Assembly: GCF_014678725.1 (NCBI RefSeq)
Contig: NZ_CP061497.1
Span: 1,256,001 to 1,320,000 of the forward strand
Reading direction: 5' to 3'
Length of the DNA stretch: 64,000 nucleotides
Source: Thermomonas sp. XSG
GTDB taxonomy: Bacteria > Pseudomonadota > Gammaproteobacteria > Xanthomonadales > Xanthomonadaceae
The translations under genes were made by a program, and so were the position numbers. Under the pieces are notes generated by a model. It made no database searches. It saw nothing but the letters and a program-made list of their open reading frames with translations, and was not told where the DNA came from. Below, piece by piece: positions 1,929-15,865 of the stretch (position 1 is the stretch's first letter; the number at the start of each line of letters is the position of its first letter).

Positions 1929-2978
1929 ATGCGCGCCGACAGCATGGCGATCGAGCAGGCGGCGGCGGGCTGGCTGGCCCGCCGCGACGGCGGCCGCTGG
2001 AATGCGGAGGAGGAAGCCGCGCTGCAGCGCTGGCTGGACGCCGACGTCGGCCACCGGGTGGCATTCCTGCGACTGGAAGCCGCTTGGCAGGAAGGCGGGC
2101 GACTGCAGGCGCTGGGGGCCGGCTGGCAGGACAGCGCCGCGCCCGCGCGCGGCCACTGGCAGGTATCGCCCGCCGGTCGCCGCGAACAGATGCTGCAGGC
2201 GATGGCGCAACGCCCTGCAGCCGCCCGGCCGGTTCGGCAGCGGCGCTTCGCGCATTTCGCGGCGGCGGCGACCCTGGCCGGCTGCGCGCTGGCGCTGGCC
2301 TGGGGCTGGCGCAGCCAGACCCGCGTCGATACCGCCACCTACCGCACCGCCATGGGCGAAGTGCGCACGCTGCCGCTGGCCGACGGTTCGCACGCAACCC
2401 TGGCCAGCGCCACCGGCATCGAGGTGCGGCTGTCGGGGCGTGCCCGCGACGTTGCCCTGACCTCGGGCGAGGCGATCTTCGAGGTCGCCAAGGATCCGCG
2501 CCGGCCGTTCTCGGTGGCCGCCGAGGGCTACCGCGCAGTGGCGGTGGGCACGCGTTTTTCGGTGCGTCGCGATGTCGCCGCACTGCGCGTGGTGGTGACC
2601 GAAGGCACGGTGCGGCTGGATGCGCCCGCCACCGCCGCCGGCGCCATCCCGTCGGTGATGCTGCCGGCCGGCAGCGTTGCGCTGGTGCGCGGCAACGGCC
2701 TGCTGGTGCGCAGCCTGCCGCTGGCCGACGCACAGCGGCTGCTGGACTGGCGCGACGGGCTGCTGGCCTTCCGCGACGCGCCGCTGAGCGAAGTGGTGGC
2801 GGAGTTCAACCGCTACAACGCACGCAAGCTGGTGCTGGCCGACGCCGAGGCAGGGGCGCTGCGGATCGGCGGCAACTTCCGCTGGGACAACACCGAAGGC
2901 TTCGTGCGCCTGCTTGAAGCCGGCTTCCCGGTGCACGCGGAAGCGGACAAGGGCCGCATCGTGCTGCACTCGCGCTGA
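1929..2978 (+). CDS. FecR-family anti-sigma factor/transmembrane sensor
   Basis: The protein has 349 residues. An N-terminal DUF4880-type cytoplasmic segment (about 6-50, with the Trp-rich RWLDADVGHRVAFLRLEAAW pattern) should hold the sigma factor. A single hydrophobic segment at about 108-128 crosses the inner membrane. A periplasmic FecR domain follows (about 135-230), and a C-terminal DUF4974 (about 265-345, starting LLDWRDGLLAF) resembles the STN fold that contacts the receptor. It starts 3 bases after the sigma gene and is therefore co-transcribed with it. Role inferred from family and order: it relays receptor occupancy to the ECF sigma factor. Confidence 0.9.
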   Translation: MRADSMAIEQAAAGWLARRDGGRWNAEEEAALQRWLDADVGHRVAFLRLEAAWQEGGRLQALGAGWQDSAAPARGHWQVSPAGRREQMLQAMAQRPAAARPVRQRRFAHFAAAATLAGCALALAWGWRSQTRVDTATYRTAMGEVRTLPLADGSHATLASATGIEVRLSGRARDVALTSGEAIFEVAKDPRRPFSVAAEGYRAVAVGTRFSVRRDVAALRVVVTEGTVRLDAPATAAGAIPSVMLPAGSVALVRGNGLLVRSLPLADAQRLLDWRDGLLAFRDAPLSEVVAEFNRYNARKLVLADAEAGALRIGGNFRWDNTEGFVRLLEAGFPVHAEADKGRIVLHSR

Positions 2979-3174
2979 GCGCGGACGCGGCGGCAGCGCA
3001 GGCTCCGAAGCAATCACGCAACGGGCGCGCATTGCGGTGCGGCCGCCGATCACAGCACGGTGGGCGCGGCCAACACGGCAGGGGGTGCCGAAAGGCCCGG
3101 GGGGATTTCCCGCCATCGTTCGTCATGAATCCGTAATGGCGTCCAGCCCGGGCGCCCGGGGGAAAACCAACACC

Positions 3175-6100
3175 ATGAAACCGTCTCGCCCGCTCCGCGT
3201 CCTGTTGCTGTCACTGGCCTGTTCCGCCGCCCTGGCGGCGCAGGCGCAAACCGCCCGCCTCGACATCCCCGCCGGCGATCTCGCCAGCGCGCTGGACGCC
3301 TATGCGCGGCAGACCGGCACCCAGCTGGTGTACCGCGCCGACCAGCTCAAGGGCGCGCGCAGCGCCGGCCTGAGCGGGCAGGCGGCGTCGCCGCAATCGC
3401 TCGACGCGCTGCTCAAGGGCAGCGGCTTCCGTGCCCAGCGCGATGCCTCCGGCGCGATGCTGATCGTGCCGAACGGCGCCGCGGCCAAGCCGGCCGCCCC
3501 CGCCCGTCCGGCGACGCAGGCGCGGCCCGCGCAGGCGGCCACCGACGCGCCGGTCACCAACCTTGAGGCCATCCAGGTCACCGGCTCGCGCATCCCGCGC
3601 GCGCAGGTGGAAGGACCCGCGCCGATCACCGTGGTGTCCTCGGAGCAGATCCAGGCCGCCGGCCTGACCTCGGTGCCGGATCTGCTGCGCTCGCTCAGCC
3701 AGAACAGCGGCAGCGTGCAGGGCCAGCAGAACACCACCAGCGCGCAGTCCACGCCCGGCGCGCAGGCGGTCGACCTGCGCGGCCTCGGTCCCAACCACAC
3801 GCTGGTGCTGGTCAACGGCCGCCGGATCGCCGACTTCCCGCTGCCGCTCAACAGCCGCAGCAACTTCACCGACATCGGCAACCTGCCGCTGGGGATGATC
3901 GACCGGGTCGAGATCCTGACCGGCAGCGCCTCGGCGGTGTACGGCTCCGACGCGATGGCCGGCGTGATCAACTTCATCCTGAAGAAGTCCGTCGACGGCA
4001 CCATCCTCGACTACCGCTACGGCGACACCAGCCGCGGCGGCGGCGAGTCCCACCACCTGACCCTGACCAGCGGCTTCGAGCGCGACGGTTTCACCGGCGT
4101 GGTCGGCCTGGAGCTGCTAGACAAGAAGCCGCTGTGGGGCTACCAGCGCGGCATCCAGGACTCCACGCTGGATGCCCCCACCTCGCGCCGGCGGCTGCCG
4201 CGCCTGACCGCGCAGCTGTACGACTGGGACGACGACGTCAACATCGCCCCCGCCGACGGCTGCCAGGCCATGGCCGGCCTCAACGAGGGCACCACCGTGC
4301 TGGCGGAGGACCGCTACGGCGAACCCTACTGCGGCAGCGAACGCGCGATCGCCTATCGGACCATCCAGAACCAGCGCAAGGGCGCCAATGCCTACGGCGC
4401 GTTCGAATACACCATCTCCGACAGCCTGACCTGGTTCGCCGACGTGCAGCTGGGCTGGCAGGAGGTCAAGCTGCTGACCGGCACCAACGGCAACGACGTC
4501 GCCAGTGACCACATGGGCTGGGAGTTCCACGATCCGGCCTCGACCAACAACTACCGCAACAAGATGTTCTTCAACGCCAACACCGGCCACTACGAGATCT
4601 GGTCGCGGCAGTTCACCCCCGAGGAGATCGGCGGACTCGGCAACCGCATGAACGTCACCACCGAGAAGACCCTGGCGGTGACCACGGGTTTCAACGGCAC
4701 GTTCGGCGAGAACTGGGACTGGGAAGCGTCCTACAACCATTCCCAGTACAAGGCCGACGTGGGCATGCCGCGCATCCGCGCCGCCGCCGCCAACCGCCTG
4801 TTCCTGGGCGAACGTCTGGGTTATGACGACGACGGCTACGCGATCTACGCGCCGGACCCGGCGCGCCTGTTCACCCCGCTGACCGAAGCGGAGTTCGCCT
4901 CGATCGCGGCGATGTCGACGTTCCGCCCGAAGTCGGACAACGACAACCTCAGCTTCACCGCCAGCACCCCGTCGCTGTTCACCCTGCCCGCCGGCGACGT
5001 CGGCTTTGCCGGCGCGCTGGAATACGGCAGCCAGTCCTACCGCATCAACCCGGACCCGCTGGCGCTGACCGAAGACGCCTATGTCGGCCCGCGCTACGGC
5101 GACGGCAGCGGCAGTCGCGACCGCTGGAGCGCCGCCGGCGAACTGCGCATGCCGCTGCTGTCCTCGCTGCAAGCCAGCCTGGCCGGGCGTTATGACCGTT
5201 ACAGCTACGGTGGCAAGCACCCGGGCAAGTTCACCTGGAGCGCCGGCCTGGAATGGCGGCCGATCGACACCCTGCTGATGCGCGGCTCCTACGGCACCGG
5301 CTTCCGCGCCCCGGACATGCACTACCTGTTCGCGGGCCAGGACTATTACCGCACCCGTTACGCCACCGACTACTACCAGTGCCGCACCGACGAACCGGGT
5401 TACAGCGACGGTGACTGCTACGACGACGGCAGCTGGGACGTCAGCACCTTCGACGTCTACACCGGCAACCTCGAACTGGACGTCGAAACCAGCCGCTCCA
5501 TGACCGCCGGCTTCGTGTGGTCGCCGACTTCCGCCTTCGACATCGCGATGGACTTCTACAAGATCCGGGTGATGAACCAGGTGCAGGCGCAGGACCGCGA
5601 ACTGCTGCGGATGACCGAAGCGGATTGCCGCCTCGGCAAGACCGCCGAGGGCGTGACCGTAGACGCCAACTCACCCACCTGCGCCGATGCACTGGCGCGG
5701 GTGATCCGCGACGCCAACGGTGACATCACCAGCGTGCACTTCGCGCCGATCAACATCTCCCAGGAGGAAACCTCCGGCATCGACGTCACCGCCAACTACC
5801 GCCTGCAGACTGCGGTGGCCGGCGACTTCCGTTTCACCGCCAGTTACAACTGGGCCCGCCGCCACACCCGGATCCAGTACCCGGGTGATCCGTCCGAGGA
5901 CATGCTGGACGTCAGCTTCAGCGCCACCACCCTGCCCCGCAGCAAGGGCAACGTCGGCGCGACCTGGGACCGCGGCGCCTGGGGTGCGAGCCTGTTCGGC
6001 ACCTACCTCGGCCGCGTGGCCAACTACGACAACGACGCTTGGACGCAGGCCACCTGGCGCTTCAACGCCGGCGCGCGCTACGACGTGAACGACCACTTCC

Positions 6101-6258
6101 GCGTGTCGCTGACCGTCAACAACCTGCTCGACAAGATGCCGCCGAAGGACCCGACCTGGGCGAACTACCCGTACTACGACACCTCGTGGTTCGACAGCTT
6201 CGGCCGCAGCTTCTTCGTCCAGCTCACCTACAAGTTCGGCGGCAAGCCGCTGGACTGA
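3175..6258 (+). CDS. TonB-dependent outer-membrane receptor with STN signalling domain
   Basis: I chose the ATG at 3175 because it opens directly into a signal peptide (residues 1 to about 23, ending AAQAQT); the open frame further upstream is not coding. The product is 1027 residues. It has a secretin/TonB short N-terminal (STN) domain (about 25-75), an Ala/Pro-rich linker, a TonB-box-like stretch (LEAIQVTGSRI), a plug domain with the RGLGPNHTLVLVNGRR pattern, and a large 22-strand-type barrel. The STN domain is typical of receptors that signal through FecR/FecI, and those two genes lie just upstream. The ligand is unknown. Receptors with this plug style in Xanthomonadales take up varied organic nutrients, not only siderophores. 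A strong terminator follows at 6288-6313. Confidence 0.92.
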   Translation: MKPSRPLRVLLLSLACSAALAAQAQTARLDIPAGDLASALDAYARQTGTQLVYRADQLKGARSAGLSGQAASPQSLDALLKGSGFRAQRDASGAMLIVPNGAAAKPAAPARPATQARPAQAATDAPVTNLEAIQVTGSRIPRAQVEGPAPITVVSSEQIQAAGLTSVPDLLRSLSQNSGSVQGQQNTTSAQSTPGAQAVDLRGLGPNHTLVLVNGRRIADFPLPLNSRSNFTDIGNLPLGMIDRVEILTGSASAVYGSDAMAGVINFILKKSVDGTILDYRYGDTSRGGGESHHLTLTSGFERDGFTGVVGLELLDKKPLWGYQRGIQDSTLDAPTSRRRLPRLTAQLYDWDDDVNIAPADGCQAMAGLNEGTTVLAEDRYGEPYCGSERAIAYRTIQNQRKGANAYGAFEYTISDSLTWFADVQLGWQEVKLLTGTNGNDVASDHMGWEFHDPASTNNYRNKMFFNANTGHYEIWSRQFTPEEIGGLGNRMNVTTEKTLAVTTGFNGTFGENWDWEASYNHSQYKADVGMPRIRAAAANRLFLGERLGYDDDGYAIYAPDPARLFTPLTEAEFASIAAMSTFRPKSDNDNLSFTASTPSLFTLPAGDVGFAGALEYGSQSYRINPDPLALTEDAYVGPRYGDGSGSRDRWSAAGELRMPLLSSLQASLAGRYDRYSYGGKHPGKFTWSAGLEWRPIDTLLMRGSYGTGFRAPDMHYLFAGQDYYRTRYATDYYQCRTDEPGYSDGDCYDDGSWDVSTFDVYTGNLELDVETSRSMTAGFVWSPTSAFDIAMDFYKIRVMNQVQAQDRELLRMTEADCRLGKTAEGVTVDANSPTCADALARVIRDANGDITSVHFAPINISQEETSGIDVTANYRLQTAVAGDFRFTASYNWARRHTRIQYPGDPSEDMLDVSFSATTLPRSKGNVGATWDRGAWGASLFGTYLGRVANYDNDAWTQATWRFNAGARYDVNDHFRVSLTVNNLLDKMPPKDPTWANYPYYDTSWFDSFGRSFFVQLTYKFGGKPLD

Positions 6259-6287
6259 GCAGGCCCTGCACGCACATGGCACCCCCT

Positions 6288-6313
6288 GCCCCGGCCCAGC
6301 CGGGGCTTTTTTT
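6288..6313 (+). terminator. Rho-independent terminator after the TonB receptor
   Basis: A perfect 7-bp GC stem (GCCCCGG at 6288-6294 and CCGGGGC at 6300-6306) with a 5-base loop is followed at once by seven T residues (6307-6313). It lies 30 bases after the receptor stop and just before the 3' end of the convergent gene at 6320. Confidence 0.9.
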
Positions 6314-6319
6314 ACGCGA

Positions 6320-7288
6320 TCAGTTCGCGCCGGGCAGCGCCTCGCCGACGAAGCGGCGGTAACCCAGGTAATGGTGGAACACGAAGCCATCGAAGGCCGG
6401 GCGGTCGCGGTAGGCATCTTCGACCTTGCCGGCCTCGCGCTCGAACGCCGCCTCGCTCATGCCATGAAAGCTCAGCTTGGCCGGTTCACCGGGGTTGAAC
6501 TCCAGGCCGATGACCACGCGTTTGCCTGTGCGGCTGGCATAGTCCATCTCGTCCTGCGCATGCGACAGGATGGAGTCGCGGCCCTCGGCGCGGTTGCGAT
6601 AGTCCATCAGCGCGATGTAATCGGTGAGGTCGGCGACGTGTTCGCTGACCGGCTTGCGCACGCCTCGCCATTCCAGCGCAATGCCGTCCCACCAGAACGG
6701 CATCGCCGGCCCGATCGCCAGCGTCTGCCCGGACTTGCGCCGGGCCTCGATCATCGCAGCGGTCATGTCGAGGAAGCCGTGCAGCAACCGCGGGCGGGTG
6801 GCGTCTTCCCATTCATCCAGCAAATGCGGCTCGATGTCGTAGTTGACCCCGTCGAAGCGCTCGGCCGGCGCCGCCGCCGCGTTGTAGTCCAGCACCCGTT
6901 GCAGCATCGCCACCGCCTTGCGCTGGTGGCGCGGCAGCACGTAGCGCTCGGTGCTCAGGTACCAGGATCCGAGCAGCGCGTACACGCGGATGCCGCGGGC
7001 GTGCGCGTTGCGAATGAACGCGCGGTACAGCTGCGGCTGCTGCTCGATCAGATTGCGCCGCTGGAACGCATCGGCATACAGATAGACGACATTGACCCGC
7101 TTGCGCTGCAGGAACGCCAGCGCCTCGTCCGCCACCGCCGGCGATTCCAGCATCGCGAACGAGGGCCCTTCCCAGGTCCACACCGCGCGGGGCGCCGGGG
7201 CCATGGCCGGCTCCTGCGCACAGGCATTGGTGGCCAGCGCCAGCAGCGCGCACAAGGCCAGTTTCGTTGCCAGCCTGACCGGACTCAT
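6320..7288 (-). CDS. Secreted GH18-like TIM-barrel hydrolase, last gene of the polysaccharide operon
   Basis: The product is 322 residues with an N-terminal signal sequence (hydrophobic 5-22); a Cys at 23 could make it a lipoprotein but the lipobox is weak. Residues 145-153 read FDGVNYDIE, which matches the DGxDxDxE active-site pattern of family-18 glycoside hydrolases in all but one hydrophobic position, with Glu153 as candidate acid. YIALMDYR further on resembles the GH18 MxYD motif, and beta-strand-like segments (VNVVYLYAD, IRVYALLG, RVVIGLEF) fit a TIM barrel. Its start codon overlaps the stop of the LTA-synthase-like gene by 4 bases (ATGA), so it is translationally coupled. I infer that it trims or processes the polymer made by this operon, as hydrolases do in pel and pga systems. 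The exact family is not recognised. Confidence 0.72.
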   Translation of the reverse strand: MSPVRLATKLALCALLALATNACAQEPAMAPAPRAVWTWEGPSFAMLESPAVADEALAFLQRKRVNVVYLYADAFQRRNLIEQQPQLYRAFIRNAHARGIRVYALLGSWYLSTERYVLPRHQRKAVAMLQRVLDYNAAAAPAERFDGVNYDIEPHLLDEWEDATRPRLLHGFLDMTAAMIEARRKSGQTLAIGPAMPFWWDGIALEWRGVRKPVSEHVADLTDYIALMDYRNRAEGRDSILSHAQDEMDYASRTGKRVVIGLEFNPGEPAKLSFHGMSEAAFEREAGKVEDAYRDRPAFDGFVFHHYLGYRRFVGEALPGAN

Positions 7289-9684
7289 GGCGCGTTACCG
7301 GCGATGTCCAGCGGCAGCCGGTAGCGGCCGCGCCCCAGCGGCTTGCCGGTTTCGGGATCCGAAGGCAACACCGAGATGAAGTAATGGCCCGGCCCCAGCT
7401 TGGCCGGCAACGCCAGCATCACTTCGCGGCGCTCGTGCGGTTGCAGGCGGATCGCGCTGCCGTAGCCTTCGCCGATTTCCTGTCCGTCCTCCGCGGCCAG
7501 TACCGCCAGCGGCGCGAACACCCGCGAATCGTGGGCATCGCCATTGACGAATGTCGCCGCCACCCGCACGCCATTGGCGTCGTTCTCCAGCCGCACCGCA
7601 TCCAAACCCAATCCTGCCGGCAGCGCCACCACCGCCGCCACCGGCTGCACGGCTGCGGCCGGGGCTTCGCGATACGCCACCAGCGCGGGCATGCCGCCTT
7701 CCGGGGAAAGCGCGAGCTTGCCCACGAACGTGGCGTTGGCGGCCTGGTAGGCCTGCAACCGCGCGGTCACCTGCGCGCGCAGGCCGGCATCGTCGACCTC
7801 GGAGGCACGGATGCCGTCCTGCAGTTCGAACAGCCGGCCGTCGTGCAGGAACCAGCGACCGCTCACGAAGTCGGGCACGCTGGTCTTGGTCTGCTTGAGC
7901 GCGATCTCGTGCTGGCTGCGGAACGCATCCGCCATGTCCAGGCCGCGGCCGGTCCAGGTGGCCTGCGCCGGCCGCTGCAGGCCGTAGGTATGCGACAGCA
8001 GCGCCAGCAGCGAGGGGGTGACGTCGAGGTGCGAAGACACCGCGCGCACCCGCGCCGGCCTGCGCAACAGCGGCGAGTGGATCAGCAGCGGTACGTGGTA
8101 GCGCTCGATGTGGGTGTCCTGCGGGATCTCCGCCAGCCGGTGGTCACCGGTAACCACGAAGATCGTGTCGGCATACCACGGCGCCTTGCTCACGGACTCG
8201 AAGTAGCGCCGCAGCTGGTCGTCGGTGTACAGGATGGCGCTGTAGATGTCGGCCTGCGCGCGGTACTGCGCGCGCCGCGCCTCCTGCACGCCCAGCGCCT
8301 GCAGGTGCTGCTCCAGCCGCGCCTTGTAGGTCTCCTGGCCGGGGAACCGGTAGCTGGTGTGCATGCTGATGGTCTGGATGCCGATCACGAACGGCGACCG
8401 CAGACGGGCGCCGTCCGCCAGCACCCGCGACACCAGCTCGCGGTCCGGGTAGCCCCATTCGCTGTAGGGGTTGCGCCGGTAGCCGGGACCGAAATTGCGC
8501 AGGTCGATGATGTCGTCCACACCCTGCAGCTGCAGGTAGCCGCGCTCGTTGTCGAAGTCGCTGTCGGTCCCGTTGTAGAACGCGCTCCGGTAACCCTGGC
8601 GGTGCAGCACGTTGAACAGGCCGGCGTGCGCAGGCATCTTCGGGCCCAGCGCGGCGAAGCCCTGTTCGGCCAGCGGCAGCGAACCGAACAGCGCCGGCAG
8701 CACGCCGAAAGTGCGGCCCTGGTTGGCCAGGAAGTTGTCGAAGTACAGGCTGCGGCCCGCCAGCTCGTCCAGGAACGGGGTGAAGCTGCCGAGCGGCGCG
8801 TCCGGCCCGGAGAACGAGCGCCCCAGGCCTTCCACCACGATCACCACCAGGTTCGGCGGGCGGCCGTCGCGGGTCGGGCCGAAGTACGGCCCCAGCGCGT
8901 CGGGCGTGGCCTCCGGATGCAGGAACGGCCAGGCCGGATCGGTTACCGGCTCGACTGCCGACGCCTCTGCAGGTGGCATGCCGATCGATGCCGCGACCGC
9001 CGTGGCAGGTACCGTCGAAGTGGCGCGCCACCAGCGCAGGCTGTCGGCGACGAAATATGCGCCCTTGCTGGTGGCCACGGCGCGCGCGTCCTCGCTGTCC
9101 AGCCCGCGCGCGCCCGGCGCCAGCGGGAGCAGCCATGCCAACACACCGACGGCCACCACGCCGGCGAACAGGCCGGACCTGGCCCGCGCCGGCTGCCGGC
9201 TGCGCCAGACCAGTCCGGCCCAGAACAGCAGCAACGGCAACAGCAACCCGGCCCAGCCGGGCGCGCCGATCCCCGCGCCCGCGCCACCTACGGTCGTGCG
9301 GATCTCGGCCAGGCCATATCCGAACAGATCCGCACCCAGCGGCACCCGCGCCGCCAGGTAGTACTGCTCCAATCCCGCCTGGAGCAGCAGGAACAGCGAC
9401 CACAACCCACCCACCGCCAGCAGCGCCGCGCGTCGGCCCGGCAGGCTCGCCAACGGCCAGGCAAGCAACAACAGCAAAGGCAGCGCGCGCAGCAGGAACA
9501 GCAGTTGATTGCCCACCGCCAGCACCACCAGCGCCGGTGCGCCAGCGGCGTCGGGCGCGGCCCGCAATGCTGCCCACAGTGCCAGCACCAGCTGGGCCAG
9601 CAACAGCGCCGGCAGCCAGGTCCACAGGCGCGATGCCGCCGGGTGCCTGCCCGGGGAGGCGTCGGTCGAGGCAGTGCGGGGCAT
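7285..9684 (-). CDS. LTA synthase-like sulfatase-fold phosphotransferase, membrane-anchored
   Basis: The 799-residue protein starts with about five hydrophobic helices (residues about 22-190). A periplasmic alkaline-phosphatase/sulfatase-fold domain follows (about 275-590). It carries VVIVVEGLGRS (metal ligand Glu285), LANQGRTFG with Thr325 at the nucleophile position of LtaS-type enzymes, and VVTGDHRLAE (metal-binding Asp-His). About 200 further residues form a beta-rich C-terminal extension of unknown role. Relatives such as LtaS and OpgB/MdoB move phosphoglycerol or other phospho-groups from lipids to glycans. It sits between a YaiO-like outer-membrane protein (TAATG coupling) and a GH18-like hydrolase (ATGA overlap). 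I infer that it decorates the glycan with a phospho-substituent. Confidence 0.82.
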   Translation of the reverse strand: MPRTASTDASPGRHPAASRLWTWLPALLLAQLVLALWAALRAAPDAAGAPALVVLAVGNQLLFLLRALPLLLLLAWPLASLPGRRAALLAVGGLWSLFLLLQAGLEQYYLAARVPLGADLFGYGLAEIRTTVGGAGAGIGAPGWAGLLLPLLLFWAGLVWRSRQPARARSGLFAGVVAVGVLAWLLPLAPGARGLDSEDARAVATSKGAYFVADSLRWWRATSTVPATAVAASIGMPPAEASAVEPVTDPAWPFLHPEATPDALGPYFGPTRDGRPPNLVVIVVEGLGRSFSGPDAPLGSFTPFLDELAGRSLYFDNFLANQGRTFGVLPALFGSLPLAEQGFAALGPKMPAHAGLFNVLHRQGYRSAFYNGTDSDFDNERGYLQLQGVDDIIDLRNFGPGYRRNPYSEWGYPDRELVSRVLADGARLRSPFVIGIQTISMHTSYRFPGQETYKARLEQHLQALGVQEARRAQYRAQADIYSAILYTDDQLRRYFESVSKAPWYADTIFVVTGDHRLAEIPQDTHIERYHVPLLIHSPLLRRPARVRAVSSHLDVTPSLLALLSHTYGLQRPAQATWTGRGLDMADAFRSQHEIALKQTKTSVPDFVSGRWFLHDGRLFELQDGIRASEVDDAGLRAQVTARLQAYQAANATFVGKLALSPEGGMPALVAYREAPAAAVQPVAAVVALPAGLGLDAVRLENDANGVRVAATFVNGDAHDSRVFAPLAVLAAEDGQEIGEGYGSAIRLQPHERREVMLALPAKLGPGHYFISVLPSDPETGKPLGRGRYRLPLDIAGNAP

Positions 9685-10970
9685 TACCAGCGCCGGTACA
9701 GCGAGAGCGAAAGCTGGCGCTCGTCGAAGCCATCGGCATCATCGGACGTGCCGACGCCGACCTTGAACCCCCAGTCCGGGCGGAAGTAGTGCGTCCACGA
9801 AACGCCCAGCGAAGCGTTGCTGTTCCGGACCAGCGCGCCGCTGCGGTCCAGGTCGCTGCTGCGGCCGCTGCTGCCGCTGACTTCGAAGTAGTCGTCGGCG
9901 TTGCCGCGGTAGTAATTGCGCGCCACCACGCGGTGGCTCCAGCTGCCCGAGCTCACGCCCGGCACGTGCTGCAATTTGTAGCGCAGGTACCAGTTGCCGA
10001 CGTAGCGGCCCACGCCGACGCCGTAGAACTCGGTGTCGGAACTGAAGCGCAGGTGGTCGACGCTGGCAGACAGCTCCCAGCCGCTGCCCACGCCCTGGAA
10101 CAGCTCGGTGCGCCAGGAATGGCGCGGCAGGATGCCGCTGGACGGGCCGTGCTGGTAGCGGACGTTGGCATAGGCACGCGCCCACAGCGAAACGTAACCG
10201 TCCAGCGCCCAGGCGCTGTCGCGGCGGCCGAAGTGGTCGGCCTGCAGGACTTCCAGCCCCAGCGAGCCGCGTTCGAACTTGCGCCGCAGGGTCAGGCTGG
10301 CATCGTTCCAGCCTTCGCGGCCACCGCTGAACAGGGTGCGGTCGACGCCCGCCCGCAGCGACCAGGTGTAGCCGTCGGCCAGCAGCGCGTCCGGCACCGC
10401 CATCCGCGGTGCCGTGCTGTCGTTCAGGCTGGCGACCTGCGCCGGGTCCGCGCCCCGCGCGCCGGCAGCGGTGAAGTCCGCGCGCGCCTCGGCCATCCGG
10501 CCGGCAGCGCGATAGGCACGGCCGCGCGCGAGCAGCGGCTCCGGTGCGCTGGTCGGCGCCAGCGCGACCCAGTGCCCGTAGGCCTCGGCGGCCTCCAGCG
10601 GGCGGTCGCTCCACAAGTACAGATCCCCGAGGGCGGACCAGGCGTCGGCATAGCCGGGCTTGGCGCCGGTCACCGCCAGCAGGTCCGCCTCGGCCTCGGG
10701 ATAACGTCCCGCCCACGCCAGGGTGCGGCCGCGCGCCAGCAGCACGTCGCTGTTGCCGGGCGACTCCCGCAACATCTCGCCGTAGATCGCGACTGCCTGC
10801 TCACGCTGCGTGGAATCGCCGGACGTCGCCAGCGCGCGTGCGCGCTGCAGGCGCGCTTCGTAGTTCTCGGCCGGCGCATCCTGCGGCGCGGCGGCATCCT
10901 GCAACAGGGCCGGATCGGCGCCACCGGCCAGCAGCGCGGCATGGAGGACGGCGGGGTACAGCAGGCTCAT
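9684..10970 (-). CDS. YaiO-like outer-membrane protein: N-terminal TPRs plus C-terminal beta-barrel
   Basis: The 428-residue start at 10970 was preferred because AAAGGA lies about 7 bases upstream; the ATG at 10976 almost touches that ribosome site. After a signal peptide come TPR-type helical repeats (about 40-185; EMLRESPGNSDVLLARGRTL, KPGYADAWSALGDLYL). Amphipathic beta strands then run to a C-terminal RRW, the terminal aromatic of outer-membrane barrels. This TPR-plus-barrel layout is that of the YaiO family and of PgaA/BcsC-like exporters. It lies directly downstream of the glycosyltransferase, with 30 bases between, so an export or periplasmic guidance role for the polymer is a reasonable inference. 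Confidence 0.82.
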   Translation of the reverse strand: MSLLYPAVLHAALLAGGADPALLQDAAAPQDAPAENYEARLQRARALATSGDSTQREQAVAIYGEMLRESPGNSDVLLARGRTLAWAGRYPEAEADLLAVTGAKPGYADAWSALGDLYLWSDRPLEAAEAYGHWVALAPTSAPEPLLARGRAYRAAGRMAEARADFTAAGARGADPAQVASLNDSTAPRMAVPDALLADGYTWSLRAGVDRTLFSGGREGWNDASLTLRRKFERGSLGLEVLQADHFGRRDSAWALDGYVSLWARAYANVRYQHGPSSGILPRHSWRTELFQGVGSGWELSASVDHLRFSSDTEFYGVGVGRYVGNWYLRYKLQHVPGVSSGSWSHRVVARNYYRGNADDYFEVSGSSGRSSDLDRSGALVRNSNASLGVSWTHYFRPDWGFKVGVGTSDDADGFDERQLSLSLYRRW

Positions 10971-11000
10971 GGACATATCCTTTGCGGTATCGGCTTGCGG

Positions 11001-12482
11001 TCAGGAAACAGCGGGACCGGGGACGGTCCGACCGGAGGTGGGTTGGGGTTCGTGCTCCTGCCATTCGGCGCTGCGGCGCATGTGGCCCCAGCGCGAGCGG
11101 CGGCGCAGCTTGACCACCCAGCGCACCAGCCCGATCACCCGGAACAGCGAGGTCAGCTGCCGGTAGCCGAAGTTCTCCAGCACGGCCACCAGGAACAGCT
11201 TGAGCTGCTGGCGCGGACGCGGGTACAGGTGGAAGGAAATCTCCTCCAGCATCATCGCGTTGACCGACAGCAGCACGCCGAGGCCGATGGAGGCGAACAG
11301 GAAGGCGAAAAACGCCTGCGGCGACAGCAATCCCAGCAGCCCCAGCACGATCACCGAGAGATAGCCGAGGATCTCGATCACCGGCCCGAGGCATTCGAAC
11401 AGCAGCATGAACGGGTAAGCCACCCAGCCCACGGTGCCGCCGTTGCGGCGGAACATCAGCCGCCAGTTCCCGAACAGGCTCTCGGCCAGGCCCTGCTGCC
11501 AGCGCACGCGCTGGTTGTAGAGCGAGCGCAGGTCCGACGGCACCTCGGTCCAGCAGATCGGGTCCGGCACGAAGGCGATCTTGTAGGGCCGCTTCTCCTC
11601 GCGCATGCGGTTGTGCAGGCGCACCACCATTTCCATGTCCTCGCCCACCAGGTCGCCCTTGTAACCACCCGCGGCGATCACGCGTTCCTTGTAGAACACC
11701 CCGAACGCACCGGAAATGATCAGCAACGCATTGATCGGCGACCAGCCCAGCCGGCCGAACAGGAACGCGCGCAGGTATTCCACCGTCTGCACCAGCGGCA
11801 GCACCTTATCCGGCAGCTCCACCTTCGACAACAGGCCATCCTTCACCTTGCAGCCGTTGACGATGCGGATGACGCCGCCGGTGGCGATCATGCGGGAGTC
11901 TTCGAGGAACGGCTGCACCACCCGTGCCAGGCTGTCCTGCTGCAGGATGCAGTCGGCGTCTACCACGCAGAACAGCGGATAGCGGGCGGTGTTGATGCCG
12001 GCGTTCAGTGCATCCGCCTTGCCGCCGTTGTCCTTGTCCACCACCCGCACCCGCCCGCCCTGCGGCGAGGCGAAGATGCGCTTCACCGGCTCGGTCTTGA
12101 GCCGGCTGCGGTACGCCTCGGGGAACTCCACCAGCCCGAAGGCGTCCACCACCGTCTGCAGGGTGGCGTCGGTGGAGCCGTCGTTGACCACCACGATCTC
12201 GAAGTTCGGGTAGCTCAGGCGCAGCAGCGACCGCACCGTGCTGACGATAGTCCGCTCCTCGTTGTGGGCGGGGACGAGGATGCTGACCGGCGGCTGGTAG
12301 TCGGCGAAGTTCTTCACCCGGAACGCCGCGCCATGCTCGCGGGCGTAGCGCAGGATGGCGAACATGGCGATGAAATTCAGCGCCAGGTAGACCACGTTGA
12401 TGCAGATGAAATAGGCGAGGAAGCCCCACTGCATGCCCACCAGGGCGTTGGAGACTTCCGGGGTGATCCAGGTCGGGTTCAT
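11001..12482 (-). CDS. Processive family-2 glycosyltransferase, polysaccharide synthase-like
   Basis: The product has 493 residues. Two N-terminal transmembrane helices (about 17-45) precede a GT-A catalytic domain with the full processive set: VNDGSTDA (Asp101), VVDADC (DxD-type Asp175/Asp177), GED (281-282) and QRVRW (324-328). At least three more membrane helices follow (about 345-420). This is the architecture of hyaluronan, cellulose and poly-GlcNAc synthases. No PilZ or MshEN c-di-GMP domain is seen. The ATG overlaps the stop of the HEAT gene (ATGA at 12479-12482). It is the likely polymerase and transporter of this operon; which sugar it uses cannot be read. Confidence 0.9.
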   Translation of the reverse strand: MNPTWITPEVSNALVGMQWGFLAYFICINVVYLALNFIAMFAILRYAREHGAAFRVKNFADYQPPVSILVPAHNEERTIVSTVRSLLRLSYPNFEIVVVNDGSTDATLQTVVDAFGLVEFPEAYRSRLKTEPVKRIFASPQGGRVRVVDKDNGGKADALNAGINTARYPLFCVVDADCILQQDSLARVVQPFLEDSRMIATGGVIRIVNGCKVKDGLLSKVELPDKVLPLVQTVEYLRAFLFGRLGWSPINALLIISGAFGVFYKERVIAAGGYKGDLVGEDMEMVVRLHNRMREEKRPYKIAFVPDPICWTEVPSDLRSLYNQRVRWQQGLAESLFGNWRLMFRRNGGTVGWVAYPFMLLFECLGPVIEILGYLSVIVLGLLGLLSPQAFFAFLFASIGLGVLLSVNAMMLEEISFHLYPRPRQQLKLFLVAVLENFGYRQLTSLFRVIGLVRWVVKLRRRSRWGHMRRSAEWQEHEPQPTSGRTVPGPAVS

Positions 12483-13537
12483 TGCGTTTCTCCCAGCGCG
12501 CGCTCGGCCATCACCTGGGTGAGGATGTCGCGTGCATAACGGTCCTGCTGCGCGTCGCGCACCTGCGTCAGCCGCTCTGCCGCCAGCAGGTGCTGCAGCG
12601 CCTGCGCGGTGCGGTAGCGCACCCACCACTGCGGGTCCGCCAGCAGCGGCAGCAGCGCCTCGGCATCGTCGGCGCCGCCCAACCGGCCGATCGCGGCGGA
12701 AGCGTGCATGCGCACGTGCCAGCGATCGTGGGTCAGCAGCGGGCGCGCCTTGTCGAGATCACGCACGTCGGCCAGCACCTGCAGGCAGGTGGAGACCAGG
12801 TGCTCGTCGTGCGGCTCGGCCAGGATCCTGGCGATCACCGGCGCCGCCGCTTCCGGACTGACGCCCGCGAGGAAGCGCACCAGCCGGGAGGCCACCTCGT
12901 CGTTGGCGCGCAGCGCAGCCGCGCCCAGCTCGTCCTTCACCGCCTCGGGGCCGGCCTCGTTGAGCATCTGCGCAATGCCGCCGTCCACCCAGTCATGGCG
13001 CGACACGATCTGCGGCACCACTTGCTGGACCGCACGCTGCGGATCGATCCGCATCAGCGCACGCGCGGCGCTGATCGACACGATCGGACTGGCATCGTCG
13101 ATCAGGGCCGCCAGCCGGTCGAAGCTCGATGCGCTGCGCAGGTAGCCGATCGCGATGATGGCCATCACCCGGTCGTGGAAGCGGCCGTGCTCGACCATGC
13201 GCTCCAGCTTCGGCGCCAGGTCGACCTGTTCGGCCACCGCCAGCATGCCGGGGGAATCGGCGCCACCGGGCGCATCGTGCAGTTCGTTCCAGGCTTCCAC
13301 GAAACCGGTCATGTCACTGGCCGGCAGCACCGGGACGCGGCTTGGCGCCGCCTGCATCGCGTCCACCAGCACGCCACGCCAGAACGTCGCAGCGCGCAGG
13401 TGATTGCGCTCCCGCCGCTGGGCGAGCTGGCGGATCACCAGCACCGCCACCAGCAGCAGCACCGACGCCACGGTCACCGCCAGACCGACCCAGATCGCGA
13501 AGGCGATCTGCGAGTCGACACGCATCAGGGTATCCAT
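12479..13537 (-). CDS. HEAT-repeat protein with N-terminal membrane anchor
   Basis: The protein has 352 residues. One transmembrane helix (about 13-36) is followed by a basic stretch and then by HEAT/PBS-lyase-like alpha-helical repeats from about 110 to 330 (for example SPIVSISAARALMRIDPQ, HVRMHASAAIGRLGGADD, WWVRYRTAQALQHLL). GGAG sits 7 bases before the ATG at 13537. HEAT repeats are protein-binding scaffolds. The gene is coupled to the glycosyltransferase by a 4-base overlap, so a role as assembly or regulatory partner of the synthase is inferred. No enzymatic motif is visible. Confidence 0.85.
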   Translation of the reverse strand: MDTLMRVDSQIAFAIWVGLAVTVASVLLLVAVLVIRQLAQRRERNHLRAATFWRGVLVDAMQAAPSRVPVLPASDMTGFVEAWNELHDAPGGADSPGMLAVAEQVDLAPKLERMVEHGRFHDRVMAIIAIGYLRSASSFDRLAALIDDASPIVSISAARALMRIDPQRAVQQVVPQIVSRHDWVDGGIAQMLNEAGPEAVKDELGAAALRANDEVASRLVRFLAGVSPEAAAPVIARILAEPHDEHLVSTCLQVLADVRDLDKARPLLTHDRWHVRMHASAAIGRLGGADDAEALLPLLADPQWWVRYRTAQALQHLLAAERLTQVRDAQQDRYARDILTQVMAERALGETQ

Positions 13538-13583
13538 TTCTTGCTCCCGTCCGCAGCCGCGGACTGTTCATTCCCGCCCGCGC

Positions 13584-14564
13584 TCATGCACCCGCCGGGG
13601 CCATGAAGCGCCGCACCCGCTCCAGCATCTCGCGCGCGTCGCCGTTGTCCGGCTTGCGTCGCAGCAACTCCTGGAACGCCAGTTCGGCGTCCTTCCAGCG
13701 CGCCTGCCGGTAGTAGACGTTGCCGATGCCCTCCAGCACCGACACGTCATCCGGCCGCAGCCGCCGCAGGTCGGCGAAGCCCGCCTCGGCTTCCGCCAGC
13801 CGGCCACCGGCCAGATCGGCGTAGGCCAGACCCACCCGCGCGTCGTGGTCGCCGGGGGCCAGTTCCAGCGCGCGGGCGAAGGCGGTGCGGGCTTCGTCCG
13901 CGCGCTGCATGCGGTAGAGGTTCCAGCCTTCCACCCGCAGCACCCGCGCCGTTTTCCTGGTGATCGAGGCCAGCAGCTTCAGGCTTTCGTCGTACTGACC
14001 CGCGCGGAACAGGTCCTTTGCCTTGCGCTCCGTCTCCAGATCCGCATCGCTGGTCGCATTGGCCGTGGCATAGGTCTGGGCCTGCACCTGCGCGTGCTCG
14101 GCCAGGTAACGCTGCACGTTCTTGGCCCGGTGCAGGCCGAGGTAGCAGTGGATGTAGGCCACGCCGTCCGCAGCCAACGCCGCCTCCGCGGCCGCCTTCG
14201 AATTGACCGAATAATGCTCGCCGAACTTCTGCCCGAGAATGCTGCCCATCGGGAAGTTCTTCACCGTCATCCCGTGCCGCTCGGCCAACGCGCGCTCGCG
14301 CTCCAGCAGCACCTTCTCGTAAGGCACGTTGGGCTCGAGCAGGCTGATGATGGTGGTGACGCCGCGCTTCTTGAGGTCGGCGAAGTCCTCCTCGACCGGG
14401 TACGGCCCGAGCAGCACGCCCTTTACCGGCGCCTCGGCCCGCACTGCCCGCCACGGCTGCACGAAGATGCTCGCCGGATTCAGCAGTACCCACACGCCGA
14501 AGGCGAAGCCGGCGAGACCGAGCGCGAGGACCGCGATGACGATGCGTTTACTTGGCTTGTACAT
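13584..14564 (-). CDS. Membrane-anchored CX5R (dual-specificity-like) phosphatase with C-terminal TPRs
   Basis: The 326-residue start at 14564 gives one N-terminal membrane helix (about 8-28). Residues 48-150 resemble a dual-specificity/tyrosine phosphatase: GVTTIISLLEP is the usual core strand, and HCYLGLHR (Cys140, Arg146) is the CX5R catalytic loop. TPR repeats cover about 165-320 (ARVLRVEGWNLYRMQRADEA and following units). It is the first gene of the minus-strand polysaccharide operon, 46 bases before the HEAT gene. Cysteine phosphatases often control or counter kinases in exopolysaccharide systems, but no kinase is encoded here. The substrate may be protein, lipid or glycan phosphate. 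The fold call is moderate and the TPRs are clear. Confidence 0.78.
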   Translation of the reverse strand: MYKPSKRIVIAVLALGLAGFAFGVWVLLNPASIFVQPWRAVRAEAPVKGVLLGPYPVEEDFADLKKRGVTTIISLLEPNVPYEKVLLERERALAERHGMTVKNFPMGSILGQKFGEHYSVNSKAAAEAALAADGVAYIHCYLGLHRAKNVQRYLAEHAQVQAQTYATANATSDADLETERKAKDLFRAGQYDESLKLLASITRKTARVLRVEGWNLYRMQRADEARTAFARALELAPGDHDARVGLAYADLAGGRLAEAEAGFADLRRLRPDDVSVLEGIGNVYYRQARWKDAELAFQELLRRKPDNGDAREMLERVRRFMAPAGA

Positions 14565-14807
14565 GGTTCCCGACCCATTGACTGGAATGCGGGATGCACG
14601 CCGCCGCCGGCCCCGCATGCGGGATCCGTGGTCGACGCCATGCGCCCCCCCTGCTCGTGCCACCGGCGCGGACCGTTCACGTGACTGGCACTGGAACGGC
14701 CGCGCAATGCGGCTGTAGGAAATGTGACGCAATTCGCATGCCAGACCGGACACCACCGGCACACCACGCATCGGACAGCGCGGGTCAACGTCAGCTGGCG
14801 CTGTGCG

Positions 14808-15431
14808 TCAGTTTTCGACGCGCTGCGACGGCGCGTGCTCCGCAGGCTGCAGCACGTCGTGGTTGCGACCGCGGAAGGGCGCGTACCAGCGCTGGATCTG
14901 GGCGATGTCGGCCTGTATATCGCCAGTCAGCGCGAAGGCCGGGCCGATGGTGATGGTGCGGCTGGGATAGTCGAACGCGGCGACGATCACCGGCACCCCG
15001 GCGCCATGGGCGATGCGCCAGAAGCCCGGCTTCCATTGCTCCACCTGGCGGCGGGTGCCTTCGGGGGCGATCGCGTACCACATGCACGGCGATGCGCGCA
15101 GCGCGTCGACCGCCTGCCCCACCACCCCGTGCGGCGCGGCCCGGTCCACCGGGATGACTCCCTGCCAGCGCAGCAGCGGCCCCAGCAACGGGATACGGAA
15201 CAGGCTGTGCTTGCCCAGAATGGACAGGCGGACGCCCATCGCCAGTTTGGCGGCGATCCCCCAGACCCCGTCCCAGTTGGAAGAATGCGGCGCGGCGATC
15301 AGCACCGCACGCGGCACGTCCGGGAACACGCCGACCATGCGCCAGCCGCCCAGCCGCAGCACACTCCGCCCCAGCCACTCCATGCCGCGGTTGCGCGGCA
15401 TCCGTGGCGCGTGCTCCGGCAGTGCCAGCAC
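14808..15431 (-). CDS. PlsC-type 1-acylglycerol-3-phosphate acyltransferase-like protein
   Basis: Motif I APHSSNWDG (HX4D) and motif III IAPEGTRR are both present in a roughly 207-residue protein of the lysophospholipid acyltransferase family. These enzymes transfer an acyl chain from acyl-ACP or acyl-CoA to a lysolipid at the inner membrane. The start is uncertain: a GTG at 15431 with a G-rich sequence 5 bases upstream is taken here, while an ATG at 15401 or a TTG at 15461 that overlaps arfB are alternatives. It belongs to a short divergent group of PlsC paralogues with His-Ser-Ser-Asn-Trp-Asp, so the substrate may not be phosphatidic acid. Confidence 0.8.
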   Translation of the reverse strand: MLALPEHAPRMPRNRGMEWLGRSVLRLGGWRMVGVFPDVPRAVLIAAPHSSNWDGVWGIAAKLAMGVRLSILGKHSLFRIPLLGPLLRWQGVIPVDRAAPHGVVGQAVDALRASPCMWYAIAPEGTRRQVEQWKPGFWRIAHGAGVPVIVAAFDYPSRTITIGPAFALTGDIQADIAQIQRWYAPFRGRNHDVLQPAEHAPSQRVEN

Positions 15432-15451
15432 GATGTCCCCCCGATCCCCGC

Positions 15452-15865
15452 TCAATCCCAACCCCGTCCGCTGCGCCCCTGCTTGATGCTCGCACGCCCG
15501 CGCTTCTCGCCCAAGCGACGCTCCTTGGCGCCACGGGTCGGCTTGGTGGCGATGCGCGGGGTGGGCGCATGCAGGCCGCTTTCGATGAAGGCCGCAAGCC
15601 GCGCACGCGCATCCTCGCGATTGCGGTCCTGGGTGCGGAAACGTTGCGCCGACAGCACCAGCACGCCGTCGCCGGTCACCCGCCGGTCGCGCTTGGCCAG
15701 CAGCCGCGCCCGCACCGGTTCCGGCAGCGAAGGCGAACGCGCGACATCGAAGCGCAGCTCGACCGCGGTGGCGACCTTGTTGACGTTCTGGCCACCCGGC
15801 CCCGACGCGCGCACGAAGCGCTCGATCAGTTCATCGTCGTCGATGGCAAGCCGGCCGATCTGCAT
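15452..15865 (-). CDS. arfB: Alternative ribosome-rescue factor ArfB (peptidyl-tRNA hydrolase)
   Basis: The 137-residue protein has the RF-1 domain with the catalytic GGQ motif (SGPGGQNVNKVATAVELRF). A basic C-terminal tail (KPTRGAKERRLGEKRGRAS) enters the mRNA channel of stalled ribosomes. It hydrolyses peptidyl-tRNA on ribosomes stuck without a stop codon. Its 3' end lies just upstream of the acyltransferase start, so the two may be co-transcribed. Confidence 0.95.
   Translation of the reverse strand: MQIGRLAIDDDELIERFVRASGPGGQNVNKVATAVELRFDVARSPSLPEPVRARLLAKRDRRVTGDGVLVLSAQRFRTQDRNREDARARLAAFIESGLHAPTPRIATKPTRGAKERRLGEKRGRASIKQGRSGRGWD

Follow-up and report, generated by a model that had tools for sequence, protein, structure and literature searches.

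A 64,000-nucleotide stretch of the Thermomonas sp. XSG genome, which is a single contig of 3.05 Mb (NZ_CP061497.1; positions 1,256,001 to 1,320,000 of the forward strand, hereafter "the window"), carries a run of six consecutive minus-strand genes that a preliminary description had proposed to be an undescribed surface-polysaccharide system. All six open reading frames (ORFs) were verified where that description had placed them. In the order of transcription, followed by the feature at the 3' border, they are:

13584-14564, minus strand: phosphatase-TPR gene, 326 amino acids, a putative phosphatase and optional member of the block
12479-13537, minus strand: HEAT-repeat protein, 352 amino acids
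11001-12482, minus strand: GT2 synthase, 493 amino acids
9684-10976, minus strand: TPR-YaiO barrel protein, 430 amino acids
7285-9684, minus strand: lipoteichoic acid (LTA)-synthase-like protein, 799 amino acids
6320-7288, minus strand: GH18-like protein, 322 amino acids
6288-6306, plus strand: terminator-like hairpin (pattern scan) of the convergent TonB-receptor gene, 3' border of the block

From 5' to 3' the spacings are +46, -4, +24, -1 and -4 bases; the short gaps and the 4-base overlaps described earlier are each found twice, and the fifth junction is a 1-base overlap. Third-position GC content lies between 0.88 and 0.93 in all six ORFs, and the ratio of nonsynonymous to synonymous substitution rates (dN/dS) per ORF is 0.10-0.35 against the counterparts in the related locus L035, so that the six look like genuine, maintained coding genes. 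Pfam matches back the HEAT, GT2, TPR plus YaiO and Sulfatase (LTA-synthase superfamily) assignments and identify the convergent gene at the 3' end of the block as a TonB receptor. Terminator-like sites are not in excess in the region (4 versus a shuffle mean of 3.6), and a scan of 6200-14900 for sigma-70-like promoters gave none, a negative of little weight in this host.

The GT2 protein matches the Pfam GT2 model, has membrane segments on both sides of its catalytic domain according to hydropathy and carries the DxD, GED/TED and QxxRW motifs of an inner-membrane glycosyltransferase of the processive type. Across 40 aligned sequences D101, D175, D282, Q324 and R325 are invariant, D177, E281, R327 and W328 each vary in a single sequence and G280 in two; the catalytic roles of these residues are known from GT2 enzymes. 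The Pfam match and this near-invariance bear out the processive GT2 with catalytic motifs that had been proposed for the locus. The HEAT protein encoded directly upstream (Pfam HEAT_2, E 1e-16) has one N-terminal transmembrane (TM) segment at about residues 9-41, with basic residues directly after it. Membrane orientation is commonly assigned by the positive-inside rule, by which the HEAT domain is predicted to be cytoplasmic.

We searched genome contigs with the GT2 protein and kept the best 80 of 111 loci, on which all counts out of 80 are based. A HEAT-family gene lies directly upstream of the GT2 gene and on the same strand in 69 of the 80 loci, which span Massilia, Gemmatimonadota, Bacteroidetes, Clostridia, Bacilli, Actinobacteria and the archaeon Halorhabdus. 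All adjacent HEAT matches have E < 1e-8; all but one of the 26 sequences in the profile used for counting come from these loci, and the count is thus partly true by construction. Eight further loci (seven from Nitrospira, one from Sericytochromatia) have the HEAT gene elsewhere in the locus, and the remaining three comprise two contig edges and one short Nitrospira contig without a HEAT gene. The ORFs of the relatives' loci were called heuristically, and some of their starts are too long. Among 296 genomes of the family, in searches where no more than the top few candidates of each genome were scored, the 25 genomes with a HEAT match are exactly the 25 with a GT2 match of at least 51% identity; two further genomes have a GT2 match at 31-34% identity and no HEAT match. 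The HEAT protein had been described as foreign to the classical pga, bcs, alg and pel systems, which holds; it is more than an addition to the locus, being the usual partner of this type of GT2 far beyond Xanthomonadales. We regard the HEAT-GT2 pairing as the main discovery of this analysis. The persistence of this partnership in many phyla suggests a separate class of synthases that is controlled in its own way; such a class would predict that HEAT binds the GT2 and that CheY-like proteins bind HEAT. Anti-phage defence was considered and rejected; a single weak HEAT-ARM match of 20 bits was obtained.

The TPR-YaiO protein passes both curated cut-offs of the YaiO outer-membrane family (TIGR04390, 128 bits versus 32; PF19413, 98.1 versus 23.9) and, at the domain level, has the TPR plus outer-membrane beta-barrel architecture of a putative exporter. 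A YaiO-type barrel gene was found within 7 kb of the GT2 gene in 40 of 59 loci from two-membrane lineages and in none of 21 from one-membrane lineages (Fisher p 2.6e-8), and the contrast persists when the loci with the conserved five-gene block described below are left out (21/40 versus 0/21, p 1.2e-5). Loci and genomes are related to each other, and these Fisher p-values overstate their independence; moreover, the YaiO profile was built from these same loci, two-membrane lineages only, and the one- versus two-membrane grouping was drawn from record titles. Confinement of YaiO to two-membrane loci is what an outer-membrane exporter predicts.

HEAT, GT2, YaiO, LTA-synthase-like and GH18-like genes occur together in the same order and on the same strand in 19 of the 80 loci (L035-L052 and L067). 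All 19 belong to Xanthomonadales (the named carriers are Thermomonas, Lysobacter, Pseudoxanthomonas, Rhodanobacter, Dyella and Stenotrophomonas) or to records named only Proteobacteria (L035, L051); locus L053 shows the HEAT-GT2 pair followed by the contig end. Two of the carriers are culturable environmental strains, Thermomonas hydrothermalis DSM 14834 (L039) and T. haemolytica DSM 13605 (L037). Of the six-gene unit originally proposed, five genes thus stand as a unit of constant order, and the phosphatase-TPR gene, present beside only five of the 19 loci, is optional. The family genomes tell the same story: the 14 genomes with a GH18-like match are the same 14 that have an LTA-synthase-like match of at least 48% identity, 13 of them also have HEAT and GT2 genes, and 23 further genomes have only weak LTA-synthase-like matches at 30-34%. 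In genome G186 the block genes are spread over four contigs, at or near contig ends.

Within the genus the block is inherited all-or-none. The GT2 gene is present in nine of 25 genus genomes (the window, L035-L039 and L140-L142, the last three from G009, G015 and G018), and all nine have the five genes in order; these five of the six genes that had been proposed to belong together are accordingly not scattered among these relatives. In the window the block is flanked by the TonB-receptor gene (2914-6258) and an acyltransferase gene (14808-15461; both by Pfam), and these flanks are 7.6-8.6 kb apart in all nine carriers. Thirteen of the 16 genus genomes without the GT2 gene have both flanks on one contig, and in 12 of these 13 a mere 37-195 bp separate the flanks (one of the 12, G003, has a receptor of only 53% identity). 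Carriers with all five genes on the one hand and an empty site on the other indicate gain or loss of the whole block at a single site, a presence/absence pattern that provides natural comparisons within one genus. In G017 the interval between the flanks measures 1,288 bp and contains none of the block genes. This spacer was rejected as a block remnant, having no match to the block better than E 0.35; given its presence, the flanked site may be an insertion hotspot. In the Stenotrophomonas loci L044, L048 and L052 an acyltransferase-type neighbour is found on the opposite side of the block (checked with Pfam for L044).

The LTA-synthase-like protein matches PF00884 (E 4e-31; 108.9 bits versus a cut-off of 25) and has several TM segments by hydropathy, forming a multi-TM N-terminus; its catalytic domain is predicted to be periplasmic. 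E285, T325, D514, H515, H442 and H530 are invariant in 17 aligned LTA-synthase-like sequences, Bacteroidetes included, and T325 is aligned with the Thr of the GQGKT motif in LTA synthase 2 (chain 2w8d). The catalytic residues of LtaS are known, and the conserved active-site set matches that of LTA synthase 2; with PF00884, the metal ligands and the Thr nucleophile in place, the protein falls into the alkaline-phosphatase/LTA-synthase superfamily, together with LtaS and OpgB. Among solved structures it is closest to VP1736, an uncharacterised protein of Vibrio (3lxq, E 1.4e-20), and two of its three PDB sequence matches are LTA synthase 2 and an LTA primase. It scores far below the curated LtaS cut-off. 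The best curated family is phosphoglycerol transferase I, whose model NF009027 gives 38.2 bits against a cut-off of 572, and among 12 E. coli reference proteins OpgB is the only match better than E 1e-5 (E 8e-10), with no BLAST match to BcsG at E 1. The preliminary description had counted the enzyme among the components outside the classical systems. A phosphotransferase of its superfamily is not without precedent, however: E. coli has OpgB for periplasmic glucans and, in its bcs region, BcsG, which we take to be another member of the LTA-synthase-like superfamily.

The kinship with phosphoglycerol transferase I and OpgB would suit a system of the OpgGH plus OpgB kind, in which a phosphoglycerol-substituted, osmoregulated glucan oligosaccharide stays in the periplasm and the YaiO protein is no exporter. 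However, Pfam gave no OpgG-like domain for any of the six proteins, the GT2 has no BLAST match to OpgH at E 1 while it matches PgaC at 6e-31, and the operon includes a TPR-barrel gene, of which the one-membrane loci showed none; we consider a periplasmic glucan improbable. LTA-synthase superfamily members act on many acceptors, and with LTA synthase 2 and an LTA primase among its PDB sequence matches the enzyme could also build polyglycerolphosphate or modify lipids rather than the GT2 polymer, in which case two envelope functions would merely be co-regulated. Against this separation, this gene and the GH18-like gene share one and the same set of 14 among the 296 genomes, and in four Bacteroidetes loci a member of its family directly follows the GT2 gene (other Bacteroidetes loci do without it). 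Two unconnected functions therefore appear unlikely, if slightly less so than a periplasmic glucan.

The GH18-like protein has a signal-peptide-like N-terminus by hydropathy, and D151, E153, M228, Y230 and R231, i.e. a DxE and an MxYR motif, are invariant in 24 aligned sequences. In place of the GH18 signature DxxDxDxE the family has the variant DGxNxDxE. Matches to the GH18 model PF00704 are weak and restricted to five of the 24 family members (best E 0.045), with none for the window protein, and an unrelated GDSL-lipase model matches three members no more weakly (best E 0.018). Compared with solved structures, the family profile matches chain 10yv_A at E 1.1e-20 over profile positions 127-309 of 313. 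This chain was deposited as "Putative GH97 from Cellulomonas fimi", and the match therefore supports a glycosidase-type protein and not the family number 18. We read the protein as a glycosidase-type enzyme of uncertain family; of the GH18-like hydrolase first proposed, the glycosidase character is retained and the GH18 label is weakly backed by Pfam. Among the 61 loci without the five-gene block, the family is found no more than 7 kb from the GT2 gene in seven, from Clostridium (two), Nitrospira (two), Massilia, Rhodospirillaceae and Phyllobacterium, and in the Paenibacillus locus L094 a GH18-like gene lies about 9 kb from the GT2 gene. A second GH18-like gene, 42% identical, is encoded in the same genome as the window (L126:7536-8465; G000:C1:1483547-1484443) and also occurs in genome G024 of the same genus. 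The surrounding 16 kb contain no other block gene, and we regard it as an orphan paralogue.

Like the classical pga, bcs, alg and pel systems, the block combines a membrane synthase, TPR plus outer-membrane barrel and periplasmic modifying or hydrolytic enzymes in one operon. It differs from them in its HEAT partner, its LTA-synthase-like enzyme and its small YaiO barrel, and no deacetylase, PilZ or GGDEF domain was found in it with Pfam. Judged by its domains, the block appears to fit the functional anatomy of synthase-dependent exopolysaccharide (EPS) systems while failing the curated cut-offs for PgaC, CelA and OpgB. The nearest known synthase is PgaC/IcaA, both in NCBIfam (140 bits) and among five E. 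coli GT2s (115 bits), and a GH18-like enzyme is compatible with an aminosugar polymer. Both would fit a divergent poly-N-acetylglucosamine (pga/ica) branch that still makes poly-beta-1,6-N-acetylglucosamine and has had its accessory genes replaced. Yet the GT2 reaches 140.5 bits against a PgaC cut-off of 422.3, no deacetylase domain is present in the six proteins according to Pfam, the barrel protein has 430 amino acids versus 807 in PgaA, and the GH18-like family has no detectable similarity to PgaB; such a branch seems about as improbable as the periplasmic glucan. Filing the block under pga was rejected for the score below cut-off and for the lack of a PgaB-like deacetylase-hydrolase in the operon, and no GT2 elsewhere in the host genome exceeds the PgaC cut-off. 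Filing under bcs was likewise rejected (CelA/BcsA, 50.5 versus 699.1 bits; no PilZ or BcsB among the Pfam matches), as was filing under nfr, since no MshEN domain is among the Pfam matches of the 493-residue GT2.

Two E. coli loci resemble the block in part. NfrBA-YbcH, a cyclic di-GMP (c-di-GMP)-controlled EPS system and phage N4 receptor described in 2021, shares with it a GT2, a TPR-barrel and a periplasmic accessory protein (PMC8669469). An MshEN c-di-GMP domain, for which Pfam shows no counterpart in the block GT2, is present in NfrB, whose proposed product is an N-acetylmannosamine polymer (PMC8669469); the GT2 family profile matches NfrB weakly, at 14 bits. The yaiO/yaiP region also has a YaiO barrel near a GT2 gene. 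E. coli YaiO is short, at 257 amino acids, and shows little similarity (E 0.28), YaiP shares 27% identity over 238 amino acids, and no HEAT, LTA-synthase-like or GH18-like gene is annotated alongside. Known Gram-negative synthase systems make very few polymers, five according to a survey from 2020, whose main text contains neither the word HEAT nor the word YaiO (PMC7112194). Neither the operon nor the HEAT-GT2 pair was found described in the open-licence literature, where no characterised operon of the same gene order was encountered either, in agreement with the initial suggestion that the system is undescribed. The block might still be the Xanthomonas xag operon under another name: xagABCD, a putative glycosyltransferase operon whose product is unknown, has a part in the increased biofilm formation of an rpfG mutant (PMC3609779). 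However, four genes are named there, and no HEAT or LTA-synthase-like gene is described in the passages considered (PMC3609779); in addition, the best 80 of 111 GT2 loci, with identities down to 38%, include no Xanthomonas record. Identity with xag is thus very improbable.

The GT2, the TPR-barrel and the conserved unit support the synthase-dependent surface-polysaccharide system that had been suggested from the letters of the locus. We read the block as a synthase-dependent exopolysaccharide operon with a HEAT-partnered synthase and a polymer bearing a phosphate-linked group, and put the probability of this reading at roughly two in three. For product, donor, linkage and direction of transport we infer the following course. 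The HEAT protein would hold the GT2 from the cytoplasmic side as a dedicated docking or regulatory subunit, and the GT2 would polymerise a nucleotide sugar and pass the chain to the periplasm. By resemblance to PgaC the sugar is probably an N-acetylhexosamine. An aminosugar polymer is a guess by analogy: PgaC is the nearest known synthase and GH18-type enzymes usually act on aminosugar chains, an argument weakened by the GH97 name of chain 10yv_A. In the periplasm the LTA-synthase-like enzyme would add a phosphate-linked group to the chain. This group would most likely be phosphoglycerol derived from phosphatidylglycerol, because OpgB and LtaS, the nearest characterised relatives, use phosphoglycerol. 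The GH18-like hydrolase would trim or release chains, the TPR-YaiO protein would export the polymer across the outer membrane, and the optional periplasmic HCX5R phosphatase-TPR protein might tune the system. If phosphodiesters are part of the Xanthomonadales polymer, teichoic-acid-type decoration would have a counterpart in Gram-negatives.

Several observations weigh against the exopolysaccharide operon. The Nitrospira loci have their HEAT gene nearby and not adjoining the GT2 gene, and 19 of the 59 two-membrane loci, some of them on short contigs, lack a YaiO barrel within 7 kb. Pfam gives no match above cut-off for the GH18-like protein, and no c-di-GMP-binding domain was found with Pfam in the six proteins. 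Genome G064 is the exception among the 14 genomes with LTA-synthase-like and GH18-like genes: neither GT2 nor HEAT was found in this 83% complete genome, in which the two genes lie on a 3.4-kb contig. Finally, the HEAT-GT2 pair occurs without LTA-synthase-like and GH18-like genes in many lineages, from which we conclude that the system is modular; the modification of the polymer may differ between lineages.

Outside the five-gene blocks the HEAT-GT2 pair is often accompanied by regulators. Of 52 non-five-gene loci, 34 have a gene with a response-regulator domain, counted with a profile built from these same loci, no more than 3 kb upstream and in the same orientation; downstream the count is 6 of 48 (p 5e-8, a value that likewise overstates the independence of related loci). 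None was found upstream in 18 five-gene loci, and the five-gene blocks themselves carry no regulator. In the Lysobacter locus L061 a CheY-like gene follows a CHASE3 histidine kinase, and L092 encodes a receiver-GGDEF protein; L093 is another locus with a CheY-like neighbour. This gene neighbourhood in other lineages leads us to the hypothesis that the HEAT protein is a docking site for receiver proteins. In a bolder and distinctly tentative extension, which we consider less probable than not by some way, HEAT-GT2 would be an unrecognised ancient synthase class of bacteria and at least one archaeon, its cytoplasmic HEAT domain would dock phosphorylated CheY-like regulators as a phospho-relay alternative to the c-di-GMP control of PilZ-type synthases, and the Xanthomonadales product would be a phosphoglycerol-bearing, teichoic-acid-like surface polymer.

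Further neighbours were seen at distant HEAT-GT2 loci. The archaeal locus L111 (Halorhabdus amylolytica) has a response-regulator gene just upstream of the pair and no YaiO-type gene within 7 kb. In L087 (Myxococcales) the ORF at 9974-12463 encodes a GT2 and, C-terminally, a domain of cluster c36, possibly a fusion linking c36 to the synthase; elsewhere c36 is a separate neighbour (Bacteroidetes L088, L093 and L102) or the N-terminal part of a longer one (Bacilli L095, L101 and L112). Clusters c5, c36 and c29, found beside distant HEAT-GT2 pairs, are not supported as one family by cluster-to-cluster profile comparison; the c36 profile does match the N-terminal part of several c5 members. A divergent gene family, c15, is present at six Nitrospira HEAT-GT2 loci (e.g. 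L062:11468-12394); the single member scanned matches a dienelactone-hydrolase model weakly, below its cut-off.

The optional first gene of the run encodes a protein anchored by one N-terminal TM segment according to hydropathy, its domain being predicted to be periplasmic by the positive-inside rule. The window protein matches mainly TPR models in Pfam and no phosphatase model. HCYLGLHR, an HCX5R motif, is invariant in six aligned phosphatase-TPR sequences, and the homologue in L056, beside another HEAT-GT2 pair, matches the DSP-type model PF22784 at 31.0 bits versus a cut-off of 27; it is from this motif and this match that the putative phosphatase takes its label. Within the genus four of the nine carriers have the gene (the window, L035, L036 and L140), and in one of the five five-gene loci that have it beside them it is in the opposite orientation. 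Phosphatase-like proteins with HCYLGxHR are also encoded near HEAT-GT2 pairs at L114:6244-7950 (Lentibacillus, Gram-positive) and L056:12684-13466 (Burkholderiales), which suggests a recurrent link of the optional phosphatase with the HEAT-GT2 synthase.

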